Positions 53,768 to 64,000 are shown, counted from the stretch's first letter. The stretch: DNA of 64,000 nucleotides from Polyangiaceae bacterium (GCA_013214025.1 JABSRN010000010.1:1-64000); one strand, 5' to 3'. The notes: a model not told the origin generated them from the sequence alone. Translations and numbers: made by a program.

Positions 53768-54838
53768 TCAGTCCGGCTCGCTGGAAAGTTCGGTGATGCG
53801 CACGCCGATTTCTCCGTCGACGTTCACTAGTTCTCCTCGCGCGACGCTGACGCCGGACACGCTCAAGTTGACGGCGGAGCCCACGGGCTGTCCGCTTTTC
53901 ACGACGTCTCCGGGCGCCAATCGGGACCACTCGGCTGCCGTCATGCTGACCGCCCCGAGTTCCAGCCGAACCACCACAGGTGCGTTCTGTATTACCGTAT
54001 CGAGTGATTCGCTTTTCATGGGGGAGCTGCCATCCAGGGCTAGGGCTACAGTCTGTGTTCCTAACACGAGGCCGGTGCTCGCAAAATCGAGCTGGAACCC
54101 GCGCTCTTCGTCGGGGCTCCCGAGGGCACAAATGCCGCTGATCGGAGCGAGTTGAGTGATTCGGCACGCAGCCTCGGGATCGAGAAAAAGGCAGTCGCCT
54201 GTCCGCAGCGTGGAGAGTTCCGCCAGACTGGTGGTGGCGAGCCCGGCGATCAACTGAAGTTGAATCGGGAGGCTGCTGCGGGACCAGGTAGAAGGTGCAA
54301 CCGTGGGGAGAGGGCTGGCCGTGTTTTGTCTGTAGTCGATCAGCGGCAGCTGCAGTGCTGCCCAATAGCTTTGCTTCCCTGTGCGCACGTGGACTTCTAA
54401 CCAGAGGGGAGACACCAGCCGGGGCACATCGAGGGCCAGTCGCAGGCCGCAGCTCCGGGCGAGGCAGATCAGGATGCCTGCCCACGCGCCGCTGAGATTC
54501 GGCTCCAAGGCGGCTCCAGGCAGGGGCGGTGGGAGCGGGCGTTTGAGCAGAAGGGAGCTAGCGGCTGCCACCAAATCGGGCTCGGCTAACAATCGAATTT
54601 GTGCGTCGCCCTGGCCGCCCGTGAAGCCGAGCTCAATGGCGCGACCGGCTTGGTGGGGGGCGGGTCCCATCACACGTTCAGTGCTCAGGCTGATGTGGCT
54701 GCCTAGGAGCTCTTTGGCGGCGCTCTCGATCCGCTCAAGGGTCGGCGACTGAAAGTGCCTGGCGAGATCTCCCCAGGCAGTAGCCGCGGCCCGGGATACG
54801 GGGGGTAGTCGGTCCCAGGGAAACTGCTCCGTCGCCAT
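53768..54838 (-). CDS. SpoA (FliN/HrcQ-like) C-ring-type protein
   Basis: Protein of 356 residues. The C-terminal part has two SpoA modules: a first around LIAGLATTSLAELSTLRTGD and a second around APVVVRLELGAVSMTAAEW, RLAPGDVVKSGQPVGSAVNL and ELVNVDGEIGVRITEL. This matches the FliM/FliN and HrcQ/SctQ proteins that form the cytoplasmic ring of flagella and type III secretion. The N-terminal 150 residues are unlike standard FliM and lack the EIDALL motif. No other flagellar or secretion genes are in the window, so it is an orphan. ATG 54838 is used. Confidence 0.7.
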   Translation of the reverse strand: MATEQFPWDRLPPVSRAAATAWGDLARHFQSPTLERIESAAKELLGSHISLSTERVMGPAPHQAGRAIELGFTGGQGDAQIRLLAEPDLVAAASSLLLKRPLPPPLPGAALEPNLSGAWAGILICLARSCGLRLALDVPRLVSPLWLEVHVRTGKQSYWAALQLPLIDYRQNTASPLPTVAPSTWSRSSLPIQLQLIAGLATTSLAELSTLRTGDCLFLDPEAACRITQLAPISGICALGSPDEERGFQLDFASTGLVLGTQTVALALDGSSPMKSESLDTVIQNAPVVVRLELGAVSMTAAEWSRLAPGDVVKSGQPVGSAVNLSVSGVSVARGELVNVDGEIGVRITELSSEPD

Positions 54839-54925
54839 ACCGCCGCAAACTAGCAGGCGGCGGGCTCCCGAAGAAGGGCTGGATTTCGCGGAAATCCGGG
54901 GGATCGTGGGCAATTCTCAGGGCCC

Positions 54926-55579
54926 GTGGTAGGTTCAGCGTCCCGGAGGATTCGATTCTTGTTGTCACTGAAGAACTTTCTGAGCTGTAACACTCTTGCT
55001 GTCACGTTAGTCGCGTCGACAGTGTGCACGTCCACCCTGGCATCGGCCGCCGATGGTGAAGCCAAAGCCAAAGCCGACGACGGTCCCCGCAAGGATCCCG
55101 ATGGCGTACGCGGCATCAGCCCGTTTTGGGAAGCCATCAACAAGGGCGACAGCTCCTACATCGCTCGAGACTTCGACACTGCGATCCTGCGTTTCCGTGA
55201 GGCCATCTCCGTTTCGCCGCAGGATTCCATGGGTCACTATCGAATGGCTGAGGCCCACATCGCCAAGAATCAACTGAGCGACGCGAGCAATGCTCTCGAC
55301 TCGGCCATGCGATTCGCCGTTGACGAGACACTCAAGGCAAAGCTGCTGTTCTTGCAGGCCGATCTGAAAGAGCGCGAGCGCAACTATGCTGGTGCCACAG
55401 AGAAGTGGACGGCCTACGAGACTTTCTCCAAAGCCAAACCAGATGCGACCACGTATCCTGCGACTGCGCCCGATCGTAAGAAGAAAATCGAAGAGTGGAA
55501 GGCGCTCCAGAAAGCCTACGGCGAAGTAAAACAGCGAGTTGAGAAACGCGCTGCAGAAGCCGCCAAGGCGCTCTCCTAG
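54926..55579 (+). CDS. Secreted TPR-repeat protein
   Basis: About 217 residues. A Sec-type signal peptide (hydrophobic stretch then TLASAADG) is followed by three or so TPR-like helix pairs (DTAILRFREAISVSPQDSMG, HYRMAEAHIAKNQLSDASNA, ERERNYAGATEKW) and a basic C-terminal coiled coil. Probably periplasmic and protein-binding. The start (GTG 54926) lacks a clear Shine-Dalgarno; TTG codons around 54961 are alternatives. Divergent from the SpoA gene. Confidence 0.7.
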   Translation: MVGSASRRIRFLLSLKNFLSCNTLAVTLVASTVCTSTLASAADGEAKAKADDGPRKDPDGVRGISPFWEAINKGDSSYIARDFDTAILRFREAISVSPQDSMGHYRMAEAHIAKNQLSDASNALDSAMRFAVDETLKAKLLFLQADLKERERNYAGATEKWTAYETFSKAKPDATTYPATAPDRKKKIEEWKALQKAYGEVKQRVEKRAAEAAKALS

Positions 55580-56507: not shown

Positions 56508-59500
56508 TCAGCTTCCCGAGGCGTCAAGCTCGATGGTGAATTCGTGGGCCAGGGCGTCGTCGGCGGATCGGGTAAACTCGAGAAACTTTTGATATTCATC
56601 GGGCTGGATGCGTCCGGCGGGTAGGTGAATTTCACGCTCCAATATCAGGCTTTTGCCCTCTACCCGGTCTCGGATGAGGACTCGTCTCGGGCCATTGTAG
56701 AATTCCCGGGGCGCTGGCACCTTGACCCGAGACTGACTGGGCAGTTTCAAAACCAAACGGAGCGTCTGGTGTGTCGATTGGCCAATCAGGATCGGCGTTT
56801 CCCGGTGAGGGAGTTTGGCGAGCCTGGCCAGATTCAGTCGAAAGGGTGGGCGCAGCAGTAACAGCGAGCCTCGTCGGTTGGCGAACTGGCCCACCTTGGA
56901 TTCGGTGCGGACCTCGATGGGCACGTCGTGGTCGTCGAGCTTGGCTAGCTCGTGGCTCAGCAACTGCGCGCCTCGTAGGCTCGGCCCCAAGAGACGAGAT
57001 TCGATCACATCGTGGTGTTGGGCTTCGCTTAGTTTGGTCAGTCCCGTGCGCAGCTGCATGCCGTGTTTGCCCGCAAATCGCTGTACCAAGGAGAGCTCGG
57101 CGCTGCCCTGGGTATTGATAGTGCCGCTTCCGTCGACAGCGATGCCGTCGGCTGTGCCCGCCGTCGGGAGGATCTGTTTGACGGGGCTGTTTCCCAGCAA
57201 CATCATGGCGGGCATGCCGCGCACTTCTGCGGGCAAGTATCCGAAGGGTGCGTGTTTGCTCCCGATGGTGAGCCAGCGGGCCTTCTTGCCGCGTCCGACC
57301 TTCAGCACAGCATGCTGATAGCGGTGCATCTCAGAGATGGGGCCTTGGGGGGGAGCGGCCAGTCGGTTCTCCGCGATGCCGTAGTTGACGGGGATGCCAA
57401 GGGTTCGGCAAAGGTGCACATAGGCGAGCCAGCGGTTGCCGCTCTTGCCCACGATGACGCGTCGAGCATCGCTTTCGCCGCCCTCTTCGATGTTGGAAAC
57501 CACCCAGCGATACAGAGTCCGGGCTCGCTGAATGACGGCGCTTTCGGGATGAGCCTTGGTGATTTGTTGAGCGATGCGTGCGATGCGCGGATCCAGCGGC
57601 AGATGCTGACGCACCTTGTCCGAGAACACTTGGGCTCGGAGATCGGCATCCAAGCCCCAGCCAATCTGCAAGTTGGGCAAAAACTCTTCGGCGGGGGGGC
57701 TCAGCTCCTCGGTAGGAGCTGCCGGGCTGAAATCCATCCGGTAGCGTTTCACAGTGAGCGGCCCCTCGGTGTGCACGACGGGCGCCGGCACATCCCCGTG
57801 GACCTCGACCACCAGCGCTTTGATGGTCGGGCTGATGATGACAAACTCGCTACGAGCGTAGGCGATATTCGCTTCACGGAAATACCAAAGGGGGCCGAGA
57901 TAGTGATCGGGCCCTGTGCCGTTTTCCCGAACGATTTGTTCGGTCTCGACGTAATCGCCCACCTCCAGATGCGGCAAGGTGACCGTTCGTTTTTGGGAGA
58001 TCGATTCCGGTTCGAGACTGCGCCCATCGGCCTTGATGACGCGCATCTTCAAGATTTGTCCGCGCAGGCGCGGATGTTCGGCAAAACGATCGATGCCCTC
58101 GGGGCTTTGAATGCGGATGATTTCGTGTTCGAGCATGGAACTCGAACCATCGGCGTGCACCCAAACAGCGGCGTAGTCCAACACCCGAGCCGCCGTACCG
58201 GACATGTGCCGTCCTGCCTTTTCGTAGGCAGCTATGATTTTTTTCCCGTCCAAACGGTAAGCGGCGAGCTCGGAGGTGGCTTCGATGAGATCGATGGCGC
58301 GACGTAGGGCGTCGGGCACAGCGCCAGCTTCGATGGCGGCGGCCAGAGCCTGGGCGAGCGCGTCCGGACGACCCGCGGCATATTGAGCGTCCGCTAGTCG
58401 CAGGCGTGCCCGACTGTCGGTGGGCTGTTCTCTCACTGCCGCCTCCAGCCGATTCCATAGCTGCTCGGTGTTGCCGGAGCGGCTCAAAACGTCGCTGATG
58501 CGGGCTTTGAGGCGATCGCGCTCCGGCCACAGCTTTTCGAGCGCCCGTAGCTGGACCAGCGCGCTGGCGTAATCCTTCCGCGCTAGGGCACGGCTCAGTT
58601 CGATTTCGGCCTCCGGGTTGCGTTCCCTGAGCCGTTTGGCCATCTCATCGCTGCGTGCGAGATCGCCGGTACGCTCAAACAGCGCCATCGCGTTGTGCAA
58701 CGTGCTCTCGTCGGTTGGAAAGCGGCGGAGCATCCCCAGGGTGGCTGCGTCGCGCTCCGTGGGCCAACCCAGCACGTCGTAGGTGTCGCGCAGCTCGTGC
58801 CAGATCGGCGCCACATTGGGCAGATCAGCAGTCAAGATACGGAGCTGTTCGATCATCTCCAAGGGCCGGCGCTGGCGCAACTGGGTGGCGACCGCCAAGC
58901 GAGCGAGCCAGAGGCCTTCATCCTTGGCAGCGGCTCTCTTGTAGAGCTGATGCATCAAATCTTCGGTCTGGCTCTTGTCGAAGATCGGATCTCCCCGAGT
59001 GATGGCGGCCGCGAGCTGTAGGCTCAGCCCCGTCGCGTTGTCGAAATCGGCTATGAGCGGCTCCAGCACGACCTGGGCGACATCATCCTGAAGCTCTTGG
59101 TGCGCGAGGGCGGCAACCAAGAAACGAGTGACGGAGTCTTTCGGGTGGTGGACCGCACCCGGCACGCTGGCTTCTCCGGTGGCGATGAATGGGCTGAGCA
59201 CGTTGGGGTCCGAGAGCCGCGTCGCGGGTCGGGAGCCGTAGCCGGGGGCCGGATCGCTGGAGTAGGCGAGATCGAGAGGGCTGCCATCGTTGTTCATCAA
59301 CCGAAAAGCGGTGGAGCCGCTCGGCAGTCTCGCCAGGATGCGATGGCGCCCGGGGGTTAGCTCGAAGCGCACACCGAATTGTGGCCATACGCCCCACTTT
59401 CGCGCGTCTCGATCGAGCACCAGCTCGTCGTCCACCCAAACCGCCAAAGCGCCTTGGGCCGTGAACAACACTTCTCGGGTCTCCGCTGTCTCCACATAGG

Positions 59501-60290
59501 TTTCCGCGTAAAAGACGCCGGCACCTGCGGTTTCGTCCAGGCCGAAACCGCAGCCGTCCATTTGGCTCTTCAGGATTCGAGGACGTTCGTTTCGCCCTGC
59601 CGCCGCGATCCAGGTCGTCGGCCAGGGGCCGGGTTCTTCGGCGCCGAATTGTCTGTGCAGATCGACCGGCAAGTTACGGCCAAAGGGACCTGCGAAACGT
59701 AACTCAGTGGCGCAGCCTCCGCGGACCGCCATTTTCCGATCTTGGGCGGGGCTCGCCTTCTGTTCCGAGTTCCAGAACCGCAACAGAGCACCGCGTGCTC
59801 GCCAACCGATAGCTCCCGGCTGATCGAGAGTGGCTTCGACGAACCCCTGCCACTTTTTCCATAAGCCCGCATGGCTGTTGGCGAGCGCGAGGGCTTGGCT
59901 GGCGGAGTACCAGGCGATCAGCTGTGTGCGGGCATCCGTGGACTCTCGGCTTGCGGCGACAGCTTCCATGAAGTGGTCGGCGGCGCTGGCAAGATCCCCG
60001 TGCGCCTTGTCGTCGAGCGCTCTGGCGAAGCTGGGGAGCAAGCTAGTTGTCTTGTGGCTATCGAGGGCGAGTCGCACCTTCTTGGCCCGCACAGCGTCCC
60101 CACCGGCAGCGGCGAGTTCGTGCAGCAGCAGTAACGCCAGGCCGTCAGGATCCTGCGAGGTCTCTTGAAGGCGCAGGGTGGCGAGATCGGGGGGGCCTGC
60201 GGCGGGTCCGCTAGAGCAGGCGACGTTGGCGCCGGCTGTGGCGATCAGCAGCATCGGCACGGTCAACCAACGACGGGTTCCACGTCTCAT
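56508..60290 (-). CDS. DUF3857 lipoprotein with inactive transglutaminase-like domain
   Basis: Very large envelope lipoprotein of 1260 residues (lipobox NVACS). After an N-terminal helical region and a domain with TELRFAGPFGRNLPVDLHRQ, it has TPR-like helices (about 420-680), a DUF3857 domain (about 700-860; VLDYAAVWVHADGSSSMLEH, EVGDYVETEQIV) and a transglutaminase-like domain. There, GKSGNRWLAYVHLCRTLGI aligns with the GDCKDKA block of the preceding paralogue, so Ser950 stands in place of the catalytic Cys; His993 (YQHAVLKV) is kept and Ile1009 replaces the Asp. A beta-rich C-terminal region follows. The ATG overlaps the stop of the preceding gene by 4 bases, so the two are coupled. Confidence 0.8.
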   Translation of the reverse strand: MRRGTRRWLTVPMLLIATAGANVACSSGPAAGPPDLATLRLQETSQDPDGLALLLLHELAAAGGDAVRAKKVRLALDSHKTTSLLPSFARALDDKAHGDLASAADHFMEAVAASRESTDARTQLIAWYSASQALALANSHAGLWKKWQGFVEATLDQPGAIGWRARGALLRFWNSEQKASPAQDRKMAVRGGCATELRFAGPFGRNLPVDLHRQFGAEEPGPWPTTWIAAAGRNERPRILKSQMDGCGFGLDETAGAGVFYAETYVETAETREVLFTAQGALAVWVDDELVLDRDARKWGVWPQFGVRFELTPGRHRILARLPSGSTAFRLMNNDGSPLDLAYSSDPAPGYGSRPATRLSDPNVLSPFIATGEASVPGAVHHPKDSVTRFLVAALAHQELQDDVAQVVLEPLIADFDNATGLSLQLAAAITRGDPIFDKSQTEDLMHQLYKRAAAKDEGLWLARLAVATQLRQRRPLEMIEQLRILTADLPNVAPIWHELRDTYDVLGWPTERDAATLGMLRRFPTDESTLHNAMALFERTGDLARSDEMAKRLRERNPEAEIELSRALARKDYASALVQLRALEKLWPERDRLKARISDVLSRSGNTEQLWNRLEAAVREQPTDSRARLRLADAQYAAGRPDALAQALAAAIEAGAVPDALRRAIDLIEATSELAAYRLDGKKIIAAYEKAGRHMSGTAARVLDYAAVWVHADGSSSMLEHEIIRIQSPEGIDRFAEHPRLRGQILKMRVIKADGRSLEPESISQKRTVTLPHLEVGDYVETEQIVRENGTGPDHYLGPLWYFREANIAYARSEFVIISPTIKALVVEVHGDVPAPVVHTEGPLTVKRYRMDFSPAAPTEELSPPAEEFLPNLQIGWGLDADLRAQVFSDKVRQHLPLDPRIARIAQQITKAHPESAVIQRARTLYRWVVSNIEEGGESDARRVIVGKSGNRWLAYVHLCRTLGIPVNYGIAENRLAAPPQGPISEMHRYQHAVLKVGRGKKARWLTIGSKHAPFGYLPAEVRGMPAMMLLGNSPVKQILPTAGTADGIAVDGSGTINTQGSAELSLVQRFAGKHGMQLRTGLTKLSEAQHHDVIESRLLGPSLRGAQLLSHELAKLDDHDVPIEVRTESKVGQFANRRGSLLLLRPPFRLNLARLAKLPHRETPILIGQSTHQTLRLVLKLPSQSRVKVPAPREFYNGPRRVLIRDRVEGKSLILEREIHLPAGRIQPDEYQKFLEFTRSADDALAHEFTIELDASGS

Positions 60291-63200
60291 TGTTGAATCC
60301 TCACGCGCTGGTCGACGGCGCTATCGAAGGTCGCGCAAAACTGGCGCCACGCGGCGTATTGCTCGGGGGCGATGCGGTCCACAGTGAGCTGCAAGCTTGT
60401 GCTCACCGTAACGCTCTTTTCGGACTGGCGGACCACCATTTCGTAGTTGCCGAACGGCGACGTCTTGGCGCTCGCCGCGGGAACGGACAGGAATTTCATG
60501 CCAGGGGGCAACTCCAACTCGCTTTCGGTCGCCTGGGTCCCGGGGGTGGGGAGAGCGACCGGGAGTTTTCGTTTCGAGAGCGAGGCAAAGCGCGGGGTCA
60601 GTCGCAGGGAAGGAGTGAGGCTGAGGCTGAGCACTCCGCTCCCTTCGGATCGTGCAAATCGATTGAGTCGCCCGCGTAGCTTCACGGATACGGAGCGGTC
60701 GATGTCGTTCAGACCCTGGGTGCGCGGCGTTCCTCTCACTTCGAAGCCAGGAAATTCCCCGGTGACATACTCGGCGAGGCGTTGCTTTTTACTCGACGAG
60801 GCGCTGTAGCGTCGTCGCCACCAGGAGGCGTGAGTCCCGGTCACGGCGTATTCGATGTCGAGGGCGGCGCTTCGGTCCGCTCGCAGTCGAAGCCTCAGCT
60901 TTCGGCGTACTTCGTCTGGGGTCGACGTGATCTTCGGCAAATGCGTGAGCTTTGAGTTTCCGCCGTTCACCAGGAGCGCCAGGGCGCCTCGGTCCATCGC
61001 AGGCAATTCGCTCATCCCGGTGTATTCAGCGGTTCCGTCCAAGTAGAGATCTAACTCGGGCACGTAGGCGATGGCATGATTGAAGGCTGCCAAGCTGCTC
61101 ACTTTGGATCGGAAATCGCCGCCTTGGTTGGCTCGTAGGATCACGATGGTGGAGTCGATGCCGAGCGCACGCAGTAAGGAGACAATCACCGTCGCCTTGT
61201 CTTTGCAGTCTCCCCAGCCTCGCGCCACAGTTTGGACGCAACGGCGTGGTTTGAAGCCGTGAATGCCAAACTCAAGGGCGACATAACGCGTGTTCTGGAC
61301 GACCCAATTGTAGACGGCACGTACTTTCTCGGTTGTCGTCGTTTTGCCGACGCCCAATGACGTCGCGAGCTTCCGGGTGTCCTCGTCGAGATCAAACTGA
61401 TCCTTCGCCAACCCCCAGTACCAGTGTCCCATCTCTTGATAGTTGGCGAAGGTGGAGATGTGCACGAAGCCGAGCACTTCGGGCCATGGCGGCATGGCGG
61501 GCTCGGGCGCTTGGGCCGCGAGTCCCTTCACGACAAAGCGCTCAATGTTGAGCTTTCCGCGTTTGTCCGTGTCGCGCTTCATTTTCGGAAGGCCGACAAC
61601 GTCCACGTAGAGCTTTCGCGCGGCGGGTGTGATCAATACGTGTTCGGCGTGGCCGACGGGTTCGCTGGATCCAAAGGGCACGACCTCCCCAAAGTAGTCA
61701 CCGAATTCATTTCTCGCTGCGACATCGTCAATTCGGTACTTGAGTTCGACGACGTCGCCGGCTTCGAGGCGGGGGAAGCTGACGACGAAGGTTCGATCCG
61801 ATGTGTACATTCGAAGGGCGGGGTTGTCGGCTGCGCCCTCGCCGCTTTCAATGGCTTGGTCAATGCTCCCGTCAGCACGAAACACACGGGCTCCGCGTAA
61901 CTGAACGCGCTGCCGATCGGCTTGGTAACGAAAGGCATATTGACGGGCGACCGCGGCGGCGGATGCGCTGAGCGGCTGGAACACGACCTGCGTGAAGTTA
62001 CTCGCCAGGCCATTGGGGAAGACCTGGGTGACGCTGAGCTTGAGCAGAGTACGTTGGGACTGCCCCTCGGCTGTGGCGTTTCGGTCTTTTAGAAAACGCG
62101 CGGGCTCGTGGGCGTAGCTTTCGTCCAGGCGTGCACTTTGGGGCTCGAGGTGATCGAGGTACTGGCGAACCTCTTTGGCCTGGGGTCGCAGTTCGAGAAT
62201 ACGGCGCAAGCGTCGCAGCTGTTCATCCGGGTGAGCCAGCGAGCCCTCCAGATCCCCGAGCTTGCGTAGCGTCCCCACGTCGTCCGGCGCGAGTCGGAGG
62301 GCTTGTTCGTAGCTAGCGACGGCGCGGTCCGAGGCGCCTTGGGCACGATAGGCTCGGGCGGCGACCCCGTGGGCCCATTGGCTGTTGGGACTGATCGACA
62401 ACAGGCGAGAGACCCAGCGACTGACCTGTTCGTCGTTGCGTCGGGATAGCGCCAGATCGATGCGCGACGAGACAAAGGACAAGTCAGGCGTGTCGAAGGC
62501 ACTCCGCCGATTGGCGATTTCGAGGGCTTCGGTGTCCCGGCCGAGGGCGCTGAGTGATGAAGAGTAAAGCTCTAACAAGCGCCCGCTCTCCGGCTGGCGA
62601 TCGAGGGCGCGTTGCAGAATGGCCGTGGCACTTTGGCGGAGGCCGGCTTGTTTGAGCATTTTCGATCGTTGGGCGATCGCTACGATGTTCTCCGGATCGA
62701 TCGCCAGCACCTGCTGATACAGTCCAAAGGCGGAGTCCGGGCTCAGCCCAGAGGCGTGCCACGCGGCTTGGGCCAGCAACCATTCGACACGCTCGCGGCG
62801 CCCTTGGAGTTTCGGTTCGGCGCGGCTCAACCAGACGGAAGCGACGTTCCGATCCTCGGAGTGCTTCGCTGCCAAGAGCAGCCGCGGGCCGGTCTCCTCG
62901 AGCGCGACGGCACGCTGTGCGAGGTTGCGGGCGAGGTGGGTCGTCTCGTCGTCGCCTCGGGTCAAGGTGAGATAACGCGAGAAGGCTTCCAGATCGGCAG
63001 CCCTCGGTTTCTTGCGCTGCACTCGTCTTTCAAACTCATCGAGAGGTGCGCCGCGGGCTGCGCTCGAGGGGCGACGCGTGGTAGCGCGGCTCGAGATGGC
63101 GCTTACTAGTTTGCCCGATTCGACGCTGGCTGGGAGCTCGGTACTGAATTTTAGATCTCCGAGAACGGCGCCGTTTCGGCTACCGATGCGCACGGAGATC

Positions 63201-64000
63201 TGTGGCTTCTTGTTGGCGACACAAATCTTTAGTGTCAGGTTGTTGTAGCCGCTATGCAGGCTGACTTGGCGCGCACGCCGACCGAAGTCATGACCACGCT
63301 CGACGGGGTCTTTGAGCACGGCTTCGCCGTTCCAATAGACTTTGACGGCGCCAGCGCTGCCTACCCAGAGGCTAACCGGAATTGTCGCCTTATTTGTACC
63401 GCGCACGAAACTAGTGGCGAAGGCGCAAGCGTGGCGATAGGGGCGCAGCAGCCGCGACAAGTTCAGTTTCCCCAACTCAAAGGAGTGCGGAGCCTCGCGC
63501 CAACGCACGACTCGTCCCTTGCCCGAGAAGCCGCGTCCGGGAGTCATCGCCTCGGCAAACTGTGTTTCGGGCTCGAAGTTCAGATCGAATCCCGCTTTGC
63601 CCTCGTTGTCGAAAGGACCGACCACAAGCCAACGATTGACGTAACCCAACTCAGCGAAGCGCCGCTGCGCGCCAGCGATATCGCCCCGCCGCCGGCGTGC
63701 GAGGTTGATAAATGTTTTGCTGTAGGCCACCAGCGCCGGAGATAGGCTTGGGTTCGACGAAGCGTTCAGTAGAGCTTCTTCCACATGGTCCGGTCGGGCG
63801 GTGTCCCACTGGGCCCAAATTCGACGCAACGCCGTGTAGCGCGCGGGGCCTCGCAAACGATCGAGTTCGGCTGCGGCGTCGACAAGATCACCAGATATCC
63901 AAGTGGCACGGCTATATACGGAGCTGGAGTCCGCGCCCGCCGCGAGCGGCGCCAGGCACGCTGCGACCCCAGTAATGACCGCGCTGGCCCCCCAAAAGCG
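60287..64000 (-). CDS. DUF3857-transglutaminase protein (5' end outside the window)
   Basis: Partial gene: the frame stays open to the window edge, and the edge-proximal codons encode a signal-peptide-like core (ASAVITGVAACLAPLAAGA), so the true start lies beyond 64000. The product then has an N-terminal domain with NRWLVVGPFDNEGKAGFDLN, TPR repeats (VASYEQALRLAPDDVGTLRK), a DUF3857 domain (VFQPLSASAAAVARQYAFRY; FPRLEAGDVVELKYRIDD) and a transglutaminase domain. Its catalytic Cys is in RGWGDCKDKATVIVSLLRAL (codon 61205-61207), His in FNHAIAYV (61076-61078) and Asp in LYLDGTAEY (61037-61039): a complete triad. A C-terminal domain (LPPGMKFLSVP) follows. It is the upstream partner of the second DUF3857 gene. 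Confidence 0.85.
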   Translation of the reverse strand, partial: RFWGASAVITGVAACLAPLAAGADSSSVYSRATWISGDLVDAAAELDRLRGPARYTALRRIWAQWDTARPDHVEEALLNASSNPSLSPALVAYSKTFINLARRRRGDIAGAQRRFAELGYVNRWLVVGPFDNEGKAGFDLNFEPETQFAEAMTPGRGFSGKGRVVRWREAPHSFELGKLNLSRLLRPYRHACAFATSFVRGTNKATIPVSLWVGSAGAVKVYWNGEAVLKDPVERGHDFGRRARQVSLHSGYNNLTLKICVANKKPQISVRIGSRNGAVLGDLKFSTELPASVESGKLVSAISSRATTRRPSSAARGAPLDEFERRVQRKKPRAADLEAFSRYLTLTRGDDETTHLARNLAQRAVALEETGPRLLLAAKHSEDRNVASVWLSRAEPKLQGRRERVEWLLAQAAWHASGLSPDSAFGLYQQVLAIDPENIVAIAQRSKMLKQAGLRQSATAILQRALDRQPESGRLLELYSSSLSALGRDTEALEIANRRSAFDTPDLSFVSSRIDLALSRRNDEQVSRWVSRLLSISPNSQWAHGVAARAYRAQGASDRAVASYEQALRLAPDDVGTLRKLGDLEGSLAHPDEQLRRLRRILELRPQAKEVRQYLDHLEPQSARLDESYAHEPARFLKDRNATAEGQSQRTLLKLSVTQVFPNGLASNFTQVVFQPLSASAAAVARQYAFRYQADRQRVQLRGARVFRADGSIDQAIESGEGAADNPALRMYTSDRTFVVSFPRLEAGDVVELKYRIDDVAARNEFGDYFGEVVPFGSSEPVGHAEHVLITPAARKLYVDVVGLPKMKRDTDKRGKLNIERFVVKGLAAQAPEPAMPPWPEVLGFVHISTFANYQEMGHWYWGLAKDQFDLDEDTRKLATSLGVGKTTTTEKVRAVYNWVVQNTRYVALEFGIHGFKPRRCVQTVARGWGDCKDKATVIVSLLRALGIDSTIVILRANQGGDFRSKVSSLAAFNHAIAYVPELDLYLDGTAEYTGMSELPAMDRGALALLVNGGNSKLTHLPKITSTPDEVRRKLRLRLRADRSAALDIEYAVTGTHASWWRRRYSASSSKKQRLAEYVTGEFPGFEVRGTPRTQGLNDIDRSVSVKLRGRLNRFARSEGSGVLSLSLTPSLRLTPRFASLSKRKLPVALPTPGTQATESELELPPGMKFLSVPAASAKTSPFGNYEMVVRQSEKSVTVSTSLQLTVDRIAPEQYAAWRQFCATFDSAVDQRVRIQQ

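Follow-up and report, generated by a model that had tools for sequence, protein, structure and literature searches.

Why does a myxobacterial genome keep, end to end, two large proteins of the same construction of which only one has an active site? The question is raised by a stretch of DNA from a Polyangiaceae bacterium (GCA_013214025.1, JABSRN010000010.1); the window studied, i.e., bases 1-64000 of an 88-kb contig in a 5.8-Mb draft genome, contains two long open reading frames on the minus strand, in the same direction and with gene A upstream of gene B. Gene A, the active member, occupies 60287..64000 in the window and extends 9 bases more to an ATG at contig base 64009 (1240 amino acids), while gene B, the pseudoenzyme member, occupies 56508..60290 and encodes a lipoprotein-like protein of 1260 amino acids. 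All features of A and B given below are on the minus strand. At the junction, CAACAATGAGACG, the stop codon of A and the start codon of B share the four bases ATGA (60287..60290), an overlap indicative of translational coupling. An earlier reading made from the sequence alone (the sequence-only reading) had described a back-to-back pair with a 4-base overlap, and this is what is found; position 64000, taken there as the end of gene A, is only the edge of the window. Named relatives of gene A are in Polyangia/Polyangiaceae and include Sorangium, Polyangium, Minicystis, and Labilithrix.

The two proteins part company at the active site. A and B sequences were gathered at the levels of family, order, and phylum (Myxococcota) and aligned with MAFFT (145 A and 115 B). 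In A, with residues in full-length numbering, the nucleophile Cys935 (61205..61207) is at the N-terminus of the core helix in a GDC motif, and is followed by His978 (61076..61078) and Asp991 (61037..61039). Each of the three is present in 145/145 sequences and the Cys-His-Asp triad is complete in all of them, as expected from the claim that the upstream protein keeps Cys, His, and Asp. In B the nucleophile is absent: none of the 115 sequences keeps the Cys, and MAFFT places a gap at its position in every one. Judged by the Cys nucleophile, B is thus not a catalytic transglutaminase/papain-like enzyme. An ungapped profile alignment (hhalign) sets Ser950 of B (57441..57443) opposite Cys935, whereas MAFFT deletes the turn, and there is no thiol in B either way. 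In the structural models an '-EE-' element stands before the helix in B as it does in A, but the helix of B starts at Arg953 (57432..57434; R in 86/115) and is three residues shorter than that of A, which starts at Cys935. Next to Ser950 in B, Gly951 (57438..57440) is invariant (115/115). In terms of the models, the nucleophile turn is effectively deleted in B. Ser950 itself is not conserved, and the residue opposite the lost Cys in the ungapped alignment may be S, R, Q, K, N, T, A, E, H, V, D, or I. Such free replacement is expected for a dead active site without catalytic constraint, and to judge from the aligned sequences it is the loss of the catalytic Cys that is conserved in B and not any one replacement.

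This changes the detail of what was proposed for B. The sequence-only reading had Ser950 in place of Cys, Ile1009 in place of Asp, and His993 retained. The absence of the thiol holds, but Ser950 faces Cys935 in the ungapped alignment only. The counterpart of Asp991 is Thr1008 (57267..57269) by profile alignment and by the strand register of the model, so that Ile1009 was off by one. His993 (57312..57314) is present in this protein but is not conserved among orthologues, where His is found in 10/115. Nor is a Ser/Ile replacement conserved: both positions drift, with T in 48/115 and Asp still in 25/115 at the position of Thr1008. Orthologues of the second gene with both Cys and Asp, which would have spoken against a pseudoenzyme, do not occur among the 115 B sequences. 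Restoration of a triad by another alignment was also considered and rejected, as 113/115 B sequences have no reachable Cys; a Cys within -8 to +6 of the site is found in two only (L015 and L016), in both cases internal to the helix.

Is B then a homologue of A at all? A scores over the Pfam cut-offs for TPR families (residues about 413-615, 62165..62773), DUF3857 (PF12969; residues 666-819, 61553..62014; 1.1e-23, 84.5 bits against a cut-off of 24.6), Transglut_core (PF01841; residues 880-961, 61127..61372; 2.8e-10, 40.9 bits against 23; the structural domain in the model extends to about residue 1010), and DUF3858 (60323..60577; 1.2e-7). B is more divergent. Its transglutaminase core (residues 906-1006, 57273..57575) is degenerate and remains below the cut-off (17 to 18.4 bits against 23; E 0.007), its DUF3857 domain (residues 714-858, 57717..58151) scores 25.0 bits in a scan of the C-terminal part and 21.6 bits in one of the whole protein (E 2.5e-4) against a cut-off of 24.6, and its TPR match (residues 614-656, 58323..58451) is below cut-off as well (TPR_19, 3.5e-4). 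Only one DUF3857 hit was found in this genome. Among 47 B orthologues a match at E 0.01 is obtained with DUF3857 in 46 and with Transglut_core in six. The relationship emerges from profiles and structure. Alignment by hhalign of the 47 B to 49 A orthologues gives a probability of 100 and an E of 8.8e-55 over 549 columns at 21% identity, and AlphaFold2 models of the C-terminal parts (predicted local distance difference test, pLDDT, 94.6 for B and 92.5 for A) have the same three C-terminal domains, the last of which in B is a DUF3858-like beta domain (residues about 1060-1256, 56523..57113) recognized by model and hhalign. PDB 3kd4 is the best structural match of both models (Foldseek 6.8e-34 for A and 1e-24 for B; for B, VIA Z 18.1 over 461 residues), and for the core of B there are further matches to TG2 (Z 8.8) and to protein 4.2 (Z 8.6). 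The model, the structural matches and the profile alignment to A place B within the transglutaminase fold, and by the same sequence and model comparisons B is a true homologue of A across the C-terminal ~550 residues. The architecture of B is lipoprotein-TPR-DUF3857-TG-DUF3858; the same order of parts that had been proposed for A and B is borne out by profiles and models for TPR, DUF3857, transglutaminase core, and DUF3858.

A dead active site could be the first sign of a gene in decay. In a matched comparison of mean pairwise identity per domain at 95 loci with both genes, DUF3857 is about equally conserved in A and B (0.345 and 0.366; ratio 1.06), as is the C-terminal domain (0.281 and 0.263; ratio 0.94), whereas identity in the transglutaminase core is 0.531 in A and 0.277 in B. 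Core columns with at least 95% conservation number 22/141 in A and 1/120 in B. With flanking domains as conserved as those of A and a core half as conserved, B is a protein that selection maintains while its active site has been released from constraint. It has lost its catalytic residues while the protein is conserved, as a pseudoenzyme should, the loss of activity being read from the residues. The best-conserved residues of B are in the DUF3857 domain and not at the dead site (Asp705, His722, Glu738, Lys753, and Lys767); all B have His722, where 84% of A have Gln, and Glu738 is conserved in 98% and Lys767 in 96%.

The two genes are made and inherited together. Where a single A and a single B lie near each other (101 non-identical loci), A precedes B on the same strand in all, and in 85/101 the stop and start codons overlap by exactly four bases (58 ATGA, 25 GTGA, and 2 TTGA). 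Among 59 relatives, with fragments at contig ends taken as present, 53 have both genes, six have neither (G007, G010, G040, G043, G049, and G056) and none has a single one. A and B are thus made jointly through translational coupling, and lineages keep or lose them as a pair. Spread over the phylum as it is, the pattern goes beyond chance.

With respect to location, the lipobox Cys25 of B (60216..60218) is 100% conserved in the aligned B orthologues. In a crude scan, where many gene starts from metagenome-assembled genomes are uncertain, a lipobox-like sequence was found in 73/116 B and 7/131 A; A generally has an ordinary signal peptide. In Escherichia coli the residue at +2 of the lipobox sorts lipoproteins (the Lol rule), and those without Asp go to the outer membrane. 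The +2 residue in B is mostly G/A/S/T and never D, which under the E. coli rule predicts an outer-membrane lipoprotein; by this analogy B is probably at the outer membrane. As a separate observation on the N-terminal GPF region of B, Cys193 (59712..59714) and Cys247 (59550..59552) are conserved at ~100% across the order, and a disulfide between them is possible.

The pattern of an active first and a dead second gene recurs at other loci. A second tandem pair, A'-B', is present in some relatives and absent from this genome. At nine of nine extra tandem loci (L253, L254, L255, L260, L270, L264, L266, L267, and L271) the first member has the Cys and the downstream member does not. The downstream members of L267 and L271 are not classified as B by the B profile and lack the Cys all the same, so that the pattern is not an artefact of classification by that profile. 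In the A'-B' loci (L253, L254, L255, L260, and L270) the first member carries GDCDDK, and B' is without Cys and keeps His and Asp. The downstream member of L271 (L271:5121-9101) has S-H-D, i.e., Ser for Cys with His and Asp kept, possibly an early stage of loss or a serine variant. Outside Myxococcota, three Bacteroidota tandem DUF3857 loci were found, in Parabacteroides distasonis, Persicobacter sp. JZB09, and P. psychrovividus, and in 3/3 the first gene has Cys and His and the second is without Cys; Bacteroidota were sampled via plasmid-collection records only and the rule outside Myxococcota rests on few cases. In P. psychrovividus the first gene has Asn at the usual Asp, and the genes overlap by four bases. 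Aureibacter has one further DUF3857 gene, which is solitary. In a tree of 43 rows B and B' fall on one side and A on the other, the Bacteroidota rows having very long branches. The second Parabacteroides gene (L273:8694-10277) has the same sequence as PDB 3kd4, and no other relative in PDB was found by sequence. The record of this gene, NZ_OY725779.1, is a 375-kb Parabacteroides 'plasmid' with menaquinone genes and nth, and may be a chromosomal fragment.

What might such a pair do? B is an ancient paralogue of A, a lipoprotein whose transglutaminase core is without the nucleophile turn. A, as its profiles and model present it, is an exported, TPR-scaffolded cysteine enzyme of the transglutaminase/papain fold with an intact triad, which by itself would fit a protease, an amidase, a deamidase, or a transglutaminase. 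We consider it reasonably probable that A and B form a single functional unit of the envelope, an enzyme and a pseudoenzyme acting together. B would anchor A at the membrane, probably the outer one, through homologous heterodimer contacts and would position or gate the active site of A, or present substrate to it. The target of A would be an amide bond, in a polypeptide of the envelope or in a peptidoglycan-linked peptide, which it would cut, deamidate or cross-link. The sequence-only reading had proposed an enzyme/pseudoenzyme complex acting on periplasmic or surface protein, and a paralogous, selected pair is well founded (Cys in 0/115 B, triad in 145/145 A, and conserved pairing, order and overlap), while the complex and its target go further than these counts. 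Several points weigh against a joint unit. The case for an interaction of A and B is an indirect one, made from overlap, order, and co-occurrence; the lipobox scan is crude; and the loci and relatives counted above are related by descent and do not count as independent, the co-occurrence table amounting to about four loss events. In part of Polyangiaceae A and B are unlinked, ~53 to 268 kb apart on one contig (G031, G018, and G013), and co-translation is therefore not indispensable, although both genes persist in these genomes and B is still dead. Finally, the flanking genes differ between families, and the 61 neighbouring genes searched for a pathway clue contained no recurrent family beyond UbiA (5 members). 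It follows that genomic context gives no pathway, and also that the conserved unit is the A-B pair itself.

The unlinked genomes, together with the concentration of conserved B residues in DUF3857 and not around the dead site, would suit a pseudoenzyme B with a separate function, such as that of a structural or a glycan- or protein-binding envelope lipoprotein, its linkage to A being a relic of duplication or a matter of co-regulation without a complex. We regard this as unlikely, given a 4-base overlap and fixed order phylum-wide, the absence of any relative with only one gene (0/59), and active/dead tandems in other lineages. Inactive paralogues commonly act as inhibitors or decoys, and B might likewise fill the substrate groove of A or mimic its product, keeping the enzyme off until an envelope signal; the overlap also leads one to expect similar amounts of the two proteins. 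No inhibitory segment is evident in sequence or structure, however, and inhibition and activation are inseparable with the present data; we give inhibition a rather low probability. Still less probable is that B is catalytic by a changed chemistry at a new site elsewhere, e.g., a set of Asp705/His722/Glu738/Lys in DUF3857. The conservation of His722, Glu738, and Lys767 would agree with this, but DUF3857 is a beta-sandwich which in structural matches resembles the non-catalytic N-terminal domains of M1 aminopeptidases. An artefact, i.e., a decaying pseudogene or a misaligned intact enzyme, is the least credible of all and is refuted by the alignments, the model and the comparison of domains. 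It could draw on the single-sequence Pfam scores of the B core below cut-off, but has to face an open frame of ~1250 amino acids kept in >100 relatives, the same fold in a high-confidence model, and the lack of a Cys able to restore the triad; a pseudogene in particular was rejected on the constraint of the flanking domains, equal to that in A.

The proposal of one unit made of A and B can be set beside known systems. 3kd4 (BDI_1141 of Parabacteroides distasonis, a 'putative protease') has DUF3857-transglutaminase-DUF3858 like the C-terminal parts of A and B, and like B it is the downstream partner of an intact gene in a tandem, itself without Cys (GTPLE for GDCKD), His, and Asp. The sequence identity is about 10-14%. 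Unlike A and B it lacks the TPR and GPF parts at the N-terminus, and unlike B it has no lipobox that we could see, lacks the 3-residue deletion, and is not grouped with B in the tree, where branches are long. Its title is silent on a pseudoenzyme nature, and no discussion of it was found in the literature searched. RloB of Pseudomonas resembles B in having an inactive transglutaminase domain facing the periplasm and enzyme partners in its operon (PMC12239564); it is an inner-membrane fusion with seven transmembrane helices, partnered by an aspartic protease and an ATP-grasp protein, with no active paralogous transglutaminase and no DUF3857/TPR. Erythrocyte protein 4.2 (EPB42), with which the core of B aligns, is a catalytically inactive member of the transglutaminase family (PMC10318531), but is eukaryotic and cytoskeletal, without DUF3857/TPR and without a co-encoded, co-translated active partner. 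RloB and protein 4.2 demonstrate that dead transglutaminase folds do real work, and neither pairs co-encoded dead and active paralogues. TgpA of Pseudomonas is, unlike A and B, a single inner-membrane protein that is not DUF3857, and we know of no pseudoenzyme partner for it. Like A, it is an envelope-located bacterial protein of the Transglut_core family (PMC3507681). Pseudoenzyme partners and inactive transglutaminases are thus known already; an active/dead DUF3857 pair was not found described in the literature searched, i.e., coupled paralogues fixed over one phylum and recurring in another.

It is tempting to speculate, more tentatively than for the pair itself, that DUF3857-transglutaminase proteins of Myxococcota and Bacteroidota are obligate enzyme/pseudoenzyme heteromers, active first, dead second and coupled in translation, and that 3kd4, the only solved structure found for the family, represents the dead half alone. 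In that case the functional unit of a widespread, uncharacterized family of envelope enzymes has been misread. DUF3857 is barely named in the literature searched though the domain is widespread here, and automatic annotation ('DUF3857 domain-containing', 'transglutaminase domain-containing') labels both halves alike. The conserved tandem of active and dead genes provides the family with a functional unit that can be tested, explains the absent catalytic residues of 3kd4, and offers a clean bacterial system for the long-term retention of a pseudoenzyme beside a living paralogue.

Some neighbours of the pair recur locally. Just past the end of the window, at contig 64352-65430 (L002:4353-5431) and divergent to A, lies a roadblock (MglB-like) and small GTPase (MglA-like) pair. 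This neighbourhood of A and mglBA is kept in one Polyangiaceae clade, even where B has moved away (L094, L097, and L098). A link to motility through the mglB-mglA-like neighbours was considered and rejected, as other families of the order or phylum do not retain this arrangement. On the other side, a protein of 381 amino acids with a FliM/FliN C-terminal domain (window 53768-54913, minus strand) and a divergent TPR protein (window 54926-55579, plus strand) are located near B, and both recur beside B in several relatives.

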